Below are positions 8,680-51,179 of a DNA stretch of 64,000 nt, in pieces. This DNA is from Spiribacter salinus M19-40 (GTDB lineage Bacteria; Pseudomonadota; Gammaproteobacteria; Nitrococcales; Nitrococcaceae). The position numbers were made by a program, and so were the translations under genes. Within the stretch, counting starts at the first letter, position 1. Every line of letters begins with the position of its first letter. The stretch is from positions 868,001 to 932,000 of the forward strand of contig NC_021291.1 in NCBI RefSeq assembly GCF_000319575.2, read 5' to 3'. A model generated the notes under the pieces. The model had not been told where the DNA came from. It did no database searches and saw nothing but the letters and a program-made list of their open reading frames with translations.

Positions 8680-8829
8680 TTGGCGGAGAGGGAGGGATTG
8701 ATTCGGCCCTGCGGGCCTCACCCTTCGGGCGCCTCGCTACGCTCGCCGTCCCCATCGGCTCGCGCCGATGGGTCGCACCCCAACAACTGTCAAATACAAA
8801 AAAGGCCCCTCGGGGGCCATTTTTGTATT
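8680..8829 (-). repeat. tRNA-Ser downstream unit ending in a second copy of the tRNA 3' end
   Basis: Bases 8680-8699 repeat bases 8829-8848 exactly (20 bases). The second copy is the 3' end of the tRNA-Ser gene including CCA plus one flanking base. The 149-base unit between them holds the terminator hairpin at 8792-8830 and a row of short GC hairpins at 8703-8773, among them an 8-bp stem closed by a GCGA tetraloop on the minus strand (8753-8772). There is no coding sequence. It resembles in plan the tRNA-derived repeats downstream of E. coli tyrT, or a collapsed integration site. Confidence 0.6.
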
Positions 8830-8830
8830 T
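8792..8830. terminator. Long bidirectional terminator hairpin next to tRNA-Ser
   Basis: A near-perfect inverted repeat: AAATACAAAAA arms flank a GGCCCC/GGGGCC core with a small loop. On the tRNA strand it starts directly after the encoded CCA and ends in a T-rich arm, so it should terminate tRNA transcription, and it could work in both directions. Confidence 0.85.
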
Positions 8831-8917
8831 GGCGGAGAGGGAGGGATTCGAACCCCCGGAGCCCTTAGGCTCAACGGATTTCAAGTCCGCCGCATTCGAC
8901 CACTCTGCCACCTCTCC
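8830..8917 (-). tRNA. serT: tRNA-Ser (anticodon UGA)
   Basis: The 88-base gene folds as a class II tRNA. The acceptor stem is GGAGAGG/CCTCTCC, discriminator G, and CCA is encoded. The D-arm is TGGCAGAGTGGTCGAATG, the anticodon loop in GGACTTGAAATCC reads TGA, the long variable arm is GTTGAGCCTAAGGGCTC, and the T-arm is GGGGGTTCGAATCCCTC. The UGA anticodon reads UCA and other UCN serine codons. The symbol is by analogy with the E. coli UGA isoacceptor. Confidence 0.97.
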
Positions 8918-51054: not shown

Positions 51055-51086
51055 GGTGAAATCTCCTTGTATCGGGTTAAGCCTCC

Positions 51087-51140
51087 ATGCACCCGCAACT
51101 GACAACCCCTTGGGGCACCCCGCCAGTCGTGTCGGTGCAT
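51087..51140 (-). promoter_or_regulatory. Structured rpsB leader, candidate S2 autoregulatory element
   Basis: In the minus-strand leader ATGCACC (51134-51140) pairs with GGTGCAT (51087-51093), ACTGGC (51122-51127) with GTCAGT (51098-51103, one G-U), and the apex is a GGGGTGCCCC hairpin. The structure ends about 33 bases before the rpsB ATG. In Gammaproteobacteria S2 represses its own operon by binding a conserved rpsB leader, and this is in the right place. Identity with that motif was not verified. Confidence 0.55.
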
Positions 51141-51179
51141 GTGTGAAGTTTTCTCTTGCATTGCCCTGAGGGCGTCGCG

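Follow-up and report, generated by a model that had tools for sequence, protein, structure and literature searches.

A divergent tRNA-linked repeat behind tRNA-Ser of Spiribacter salinus and its putatively mobile 74-nt core

Introduction

The window analyzed here (64,000 nt of the S. salinus M19-40 genome) contains a tRNA-Ser gene whose 3′ end recurs a short distance downstream. An earlier note on this DNA compared the plan to that of the Escherichia coli tyrT operon and its rtT repeats, considered the sequence to be unrelated, and offered a collapsed integrative element as the other explanation. What is this unit, and why does it carry a second tRNA 3′ end? The E. coli repeats are tRNA-linked repeats (TLRs), which were first described in 1978, occur in K-12 as 22 copies at ten loci, and still had no known function by 2021 (PMC8144298).

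The repeat unit at the tRNA-Ser(UGA) locus

The single tRNA gene that ARAGORN found in the window is tRNA-Ser(TGA) on the minus strand (Table 1). Its 3′ end recurs in a perfect direct repeat of 20 bases with a spacing of 149, as the earlier note had it, except that on the minus strand 19 of them belong to the tRNA 3′ end (AATCCCTCCCTCTCCGCCA) and one is a flanking base. Between the two copies lie a terminator-like hairpin, with 19-nt arms (8791–8809 and 8813–8831) that are 95% complementary, and a GC-rich multi-hairpin stretch. In minus-strand order, the CCA at 8830 is followed by the hairpin, 11 bases, the motif GGTGCGA, a core of 74 nt (hereafter, X), and ATCCCTCCCTCTCCGCCA. An open reading frame (ORF) matching HAD hydrolases starts 23 bases downstream of the unit, and pyrD lies upstream. 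Folded as RNA, the unit with its tRNA and terminator was more stable than shuffled sequences (z −3.9); the unit alone, folded as DNA, was no more stable than shuffles (z −0.69). The window also contains an ordinary t44 RNA match (51076–51163, minus strand, 72.3 bits).

Table 1 Features of the tRNA-Ser(UGA) locus (positions within the window)
Feature	Position	Strand	Evidence
tRNA-Ser(UGA) gene; last 19 bases are repeat copy 1	8830–8917	−	ARAGORN; Rfam tRNA, 61.1 bits
Repeat copy 1, 20 bases (tRNA 3′ end + one base)	8829–8848	−	Repeat search
Terminator-like hairpin with A-run and T-run, directly 3′ of the tRNA	8791–8831		Inverted repeat
Left T-loop flank of core X, degenerate (GGTGCGA, not GGTTCGA)	8773–8779	−	Sequence and consensus of relatives
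Core X, four-hairpin 74-nt module	8699–8772	−	R2 match G000:876699-876772, 71.7 bits
18-base copy of the tRNA 3′ end (ATCCCTCCCTCTCCGCCA), 3′ of core X	8681–8698	−	Sequence and repeat
Repeat copy 2, 20 bases	8680–8699	−	Repeat search

Relationship to the tRNA-linked repeats of E. coli

A covariance model (R1) was built from 26 units of the genus and family, tRNA flanks included. In a search of 78 kb, R1 found the E. coli tyrT–tyrV unit (E 6e-6) and three rtT units (E 9e-4 to 2e-3), and the four K-12 tyrT-region units score 35.4, 25.6, 24.2, and 23.9 bits. In the one alignment shown, the first K-12 unit is in register and has the same T-loop junction, and the tyrT and rrnB cores of E. coli align with the other cores in alignment A2. 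The Rfam RtT model (RF00391) matches both units of the S. salinus genome from end to end and at the expected position, scoring 28.6 bits (E 0.088) for the window unit and 27.9 bits (E 0.13) for the other. These scores are under the gathering cut-off of 45 bits, and Rfam would therefore not call the two units; above the cut-off are the tRNA-Tyr units of locus L090 and a tRNA-Ser unit of L237. The likeness in plan to tyrT/rtT was correctly recognized and is stronger than had been claimed, since R1 finds the tyrT-region units, and the sequence cannot be called unrelated, because R1 and Rfam RtT match in register. Judged by these models and alignments, the window unit is an authentic but divergent TLR of the same family as E. 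coli rtT.

Like the E. coli TLRs (tyrT rtT/RttR, rrA/rrB/rrF), the unit has a multi-hairpin core followed by 18–19 bases from the 3′ end of the stable RNA gene before it, and there are several copies per genome (two loci in S. salinus, with tandem units in congeners at a spacing of 168–184 bp; E. coli rtT units are spaced 178 bp). The K-12 tyrT units read AAGGTTCGA[core]ATCCTTCCCCCACCACCA, with GGTTCGG in one of the four, so that the T-loop junction, GGTTCG(A/G)^X^ATCC, is alike. At K-12 rrnB, which reads GAGTAGGA[core]ACTGCCAGGCATC, the core lies 3′ of the first terminator-like hairpin and before the copy of the 5S end, placing X between two terminator-like hairpins. Unlike the E. coli TLRs, the unit studied here stands on tRNA-Ser of a small, non-enterobacterial genome, its loops are mostly GNA instead of GGA, and what precedes X in most of the congeners read is an inverted T-arm/variable arm, which has degenerated in the window copy.

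Other Rfam families gave sub-cut-off matches, including sX4 (RF02223) and Plastid-psbl-rps4 (RF04351) to tRNA-Ser genes or their antisense (L001, L002, L088, L093, and others) and AaHKsRNA22 (RF02902) to the core region (L093 and L236). These three families may overlap tRNA-Ser or TLRs.

Copies in the genome, genus, and family

The S. salinus genome is a single contig of 1.74 Mb with 43 tRNA genes, among which downstream signals are distinctive at the tRNA-Ser genes only. Downstream of tRNA-Ser TGA and CGA lies a 19-nt copy of the gene's own 3′ end; inverted T-arm copies follow the CGA (16 nt) and GCT (15 nt) genes. The GCT gene has the terminator and the inverted T-arm and lacks the core, and tRNA-Ser(GGA) has no core and an inverted match of just 9 nt, the same as other tRNAs; the 39 non-Ser tRNAs reach at most 9 nt for either a 3′-end copy or an inverted T-arm. 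The unit behind tRNA-Ser(CGA) shows 98% identity to the window unit over 101 bases and is followed by another terminator and inverted T-arm.

Further copies beside tRNA genes, which the earlier note had proposed to look for, were found at tRNA-Ser(CGA) and in all 14 congeneric genomes searched; three of nine other genomes of the family also have matches. Given this recurrence behind tRNA-Ser(CGA) and throughout the genus genomes, the window repeat is more than chance. A tRNA-Ser gene is present at 23 of 28 loci, some of them overlapping (anticodons TGA, CGA, GGA, and GCT); four of the remaining five abut a contig end, and the fifth (L030) is a weak partial match. At the GGA locus before a katG-like gene (named by reading the sequence), the core is present in two congeners (L009 and L010) and absent from S. 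salinus (L003).

Cores are partially homogenized within genomes. Among 33 cores of the genus, tandem cores are 99.4% identical (seven pairs), with a mean of 86.8% between tRNA-Ser genes of one genome and 81% between genomes. For 12 of 22 cores, the nearest relative is from the same genome; for six of the 22, it is from the same isoacceptor. Exchange between tRNA-Ser genes of the same genome via their common 3′ end would explain this kinship best, with ten of the 22 showing no such pattern.

Three further loci of the genus deserve mention. A TLR-like unit stands behind tRNA-Arg(ACG) (L224, G004:C1:1073220-1074270), and TLRs of the genus are thus not limited to tRNA-Ser. An orphan unit (L214, G001:C1:175080-176060, at about 436–528) has a tRNA-Ser 3′ end and terminator in a stretch without a tRNA gene. 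The same one-contig congener contains, as its sole near-full tRNA-Ser(GGA) match, an 83-nt sequence (vs. 91 nt; G001:C1:1210497-1210579, L215 and L244) in which the T-arm is replaced by an apparent core 3′ end (..GGGTCA^ATCCC) and which ARAGORN does not call. Faulty recombination with the repeat could have removed the T-arm, or the assembly could be wrong at this point.

Structure and insertion point of the core

Based on the consensus of relatives, X is placed exactly within the T-loop (GGTTCGA^X^ATCC...CCA). Within the family, a different genus (G022) has extra full-length tRNA-Ser copies that X splits at this same point (L078–L080), and the split copies stand just before an intact tRNA-Ser. 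Four hairpins are common to 40 cores from across the class, including those of E. coli tyrT and rrnB. Compensatory change in these 40 cores is strong: of the 18 base pairs tested, 13 have changed on both sides, 93.5% of cells are paired, and double-change cells number 105, compared to 23.8 in shuffles. Outside the class, X also forms exact, contiguous head-to-tail arrays (G560:C83 15857-15929/15930-16002/16003-16076, L231, and L242). Because of this contiguity, the ends inferred from T-loops are the true ends of X.

Distribution and flanks across genomes

Because R1 contains tRNA flanks, its matches are biased to tRNA-Ser, and a second model (R2) was therefore made from the core alone, with most seeds taken from R1 matches. 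With 11–13 candidates scored per genome and strict filters, the following genome counts are lower bounds: R2 matches (E ≤ 1e-4) occur in at least 143 of 369 gammaproteobacterial genomes and, in the search of the phylum, in at least 83 of 378 genomes, of which at least 54 are outside the class. In the S. salinus genome, R2 found two copies only, both at T-loops (13 candidates scored). The 17 named stretches that fit one strict pattern include Microbulbifer, Lysobacterales, Woeseiaceae, Oceanospirillales, Nitrococcus, and Thiotrichales. The sole Desulfobulbaceae record (L255) is probably mis-binned; its insertion is identical to that of a gammaproteobacterial bin from the same project series (L259).

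Flanks were tabulated for 97 loci chosen among the matches listed, in which R2 re-scoring gave 125 matches. A T-loop left flank precedes X in 85 of these (for 73 of them, the fetched stretch includes a tRNA; for 12, it does not), 17 are near a tRNA with another flank, and 23 have another flank with no tRNA or 5S found. The flank is matched to the isotype in many cases: the 3′ end of the nearest tRNA itself is exact (18/18, best of small shifts) in 39 of the 125 matches (Arg 15, Ser 11, Gln 6, Tyr 4, Glu 2, Met 1), 34 of which have the T-loop flank, and the remaining matches agree partially or not at all with the nearest tRNA's 3′ end. One copy of X stands behind tmRNA (L229) and reads GTTCGA^X^AACCCGCC, with eight bases in common. 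Among 41 matches without the T-loop flank, an A precedes X in 33 (25 GA, 7 CA, 1 AA) and is missing in eight, and X ends in TCA, TAA, or TGA in 37.

A search of plasmid records with the window unit gave a partial match to a Serratia marcescens plasmid record (NZ_CP042515.1, 5997–6040, 84% over 48%, at four places).

Copies within protein genes

At two loci X interrupts a protein gene, encoding HsdM (L156) and an IS91 transposase (L212). When the flanks are joined, the HsdM_N domain is restored across the joint (53–157, joint at 145), as is the Zn_Tnp_IS91 domain (97–175, joint at 136). With X in place, no frame of at least 120 aa spans it in L156, and in L212 (X at 452–522) the sole such frame has two codons on one side. 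A 73-base X also lies in an IS91-like transposase, recognized by eye, of a Nitrococcus bin (L263, 3680–3752), and the points at which the core stands in the two IS91-type genes (L212 and L263) differ. In L128, L197, and L207, the length of X is divisible by three and a long frame continues across it, which could be due to chance in GC-rich DNA. Several dispersed copies in G144 are carried inside a larger repeat, and not every dispersed copy need therefore be an independent insertion.

REP/BIME and other small palindromic repeats form a class that includes elements inside ORFs. X resembles them in being short, multi-hairpin, dispersed, and at times within genes; by description, its four hairpins in constant order, its sharply defined ends, and its strong preference for the T-loops of tRNA copies set it apart. 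In the open-licence literature, we found no paper recognizable as describing the TLR core as an insertion element.

X may transpose in its own right, presumably by the action of an enzyme. Y1 transposases (PF01797) were found in 110 of 143 X-bearing and 131 of 226 other genomes (odds ratio 2.4, p-value 2e-4, genome size uncontrolled). Y1 transposases are thus commoner in X-bearing genomes, and a single-strand (Y1/HUH) enzyme may be a partner of X, though apparently not a required one, as 33 of the 143 X-bearing genomes have no PF01797 match.

Origin of the unit

We consider it probable that X is a mobile DNA element of ~74 nt and that in a TLR it is lodged within a duplicated tRNA 3′ end, at the T-loop. 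The TLR would then consist of a terminator behind the tRNA, a second tRNA T-arm as a scar, the ~74-nt X, and the tRNA's last 18 bases in a second copy. X would insert mostly behind (G/C)A and most often in the tRNA T-loop (GGTTCGA^ATCC), other sites being tmRNA and 5S copies, intergenic DNA, and protein genes. Insertion would be tolerated because the interrupted copy is a duplicate 3′ end behind an intact tRNA, an order of duplication and insertion that we infer. Recombination between identical 3′ ends could account for both tandem multiplication and copying between tRNA loci, and the unit may be transcribed by read-through from the tRNA promoter.

A different and rather doubtful explanation is that the unit is primarily a functional RNA: an sRNA co-transcribed with tRNA or rRNA and processed from the transcript would titrate CsrA and bind Hfq, its abundance would report growth rate, and selection would keep the copies. 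The rRNA-linked RrA/B/F are reported to be transcribed and processed and to bind Hfq and CsrA in vitro (PMC8144298), and RtT RNAs were detected in Actinobacillus and Thioalkalivibrio (PMC4986893, PMC8092127). The motif recognized by CsrA is GGA, and at least two predicted GGA hairpin loops occur in 62% of 117 distinct cores, compared to 1.9% of dinucleotide shuffles. CsrA was found in the S. salinus genome and in 313 of 369 genomes of the class, a frequency at which its presence provides no usable contrast. However, only three of the 26 genus and family units have at least two GGA loops, and none is predicted in the window core. For E. coli, PMC8144298 gives a CsrA probability <0.01 for the 19 tRNA-linked members and reports no clear phenotype for RrA/B/F. 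Furthermore, cores with at least two GGA loops are no rarer away from tRNAs (17 of 21 distinct cores) than at T-loops (48/79), with eight of 17 near a tRNA with another flank; this points to a feature of the element itself rather than of an sRNA coupled to a tRNA. In other lineages, CsrA titration appears plausible because RrA/B/F bind CsrA in vitro (PMC8144298), and in S. salinus it seems unlikely.

Still less probable, in our judgment, is that the tRNA 3′-end unit alone duplicates, by hairpin-primed copying and unequal crossing-over, with X as a fixed part of it and the dispersed copies as secondary escapes. Between the terminator and X there is often a stretch that repeats the 3′ half of the adjacent tRNA in inverted orientation. 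Over 50 units, the mean length of the longest such match is 9.8 nt when a unit is compared with its own tRNA and 6.9 nt when it is compared with others (Wilcoxon p-value 1e-12); the match is as long as 19 nt and in many units remains at the chance level. In L133 and L157, the palindrome extends through the terminator, and in the window copy most of the inverted stretch is gone. These inverted copies look like products of hairpin-primed copying, and the 99.4% identity of tandem copies and the orphan unit L214, with its tRNA end in a stretch without a tRNA, are also as expected from duplication of the unit. The dispersed copies, in genes and in arrays, argue against this reading, since they consist of X alone, with T-loop-type ends and without tRNA sequence.

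The collapsed integrative island, in which an integrase-bearing element at the tRNA 3′ end was lost and left the duplicated end behind, retains hardly any credibility: the geometry of the 19-base duplication fits, and T-loops are classic integrase attachment sites, but the flanks are pyrD and the HAD hydrolase gene, six nearby proteins were tested and include no integrase, the tandem units at the congeneric loci read have no larger or integrase-bearing element between the copies, the same core with the same boundaries lies behind tRNAs of many isotypes and in protein genes, and neither the 50,697 phage records nor the 72,556 plasmid records searched gave a match to the core of the dispersed copy L212. 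An integrase island is not needed to explain the unit; the earlier proposal of an insertion at the tRNA was right in part, with the ~74-bp core as the apparent insert.

Implications of a proposed mobile core

Returning to X as a mobile element, a broader proposition, on which we do not lean to either side, is that the TLR core, also found behind the 5S of E. coli rrnB, represents a previously unrecognized class of gene-less mobile elements. Such an element would be ~74 bp long with four hairpins, would insert mostly behind (G/C)A without clear target duplication, and would stack head to tail, with the tRNA T-loop as a hot spot and tmRNA and 5S as rarer hosts. It would occur across Gammaproteobacteria and at least one other class of the phylum and would have CsrA-type loops in many lineages; what began as a parasite of tRNA genes may thus have turned into a growth-coupled regulatory RNA.

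If the core is mobile with a hot spot in the T-loop, the 18–19-base tRNA ends would be a consequence of the insertion site and not a signal. The question of what TLRs do would become testable, and function could be searched for in species in which the copies differ. The core-bearing rrnB sequence is part of common rrnB terminator cassettes, which would then carry such an element. The insertions in genes and the tRNA-Ser(GGA)-like gene of G001, which is without a T-arm and stands beside such units, suggest that these repeats can reshape important genes.

Proximity to csrA

TLR matches lie within ~1 kb of csrA in several genomes of the class (e.g., G144, G155, and G339). In the S. salinus genome, a csrA match (G000:C1:770368-770523) ends ~100 bases before tRNA-Ser(GCT) (770625–770713), a linkage between csrA and tRNA-Ser that is known in E. 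coli.
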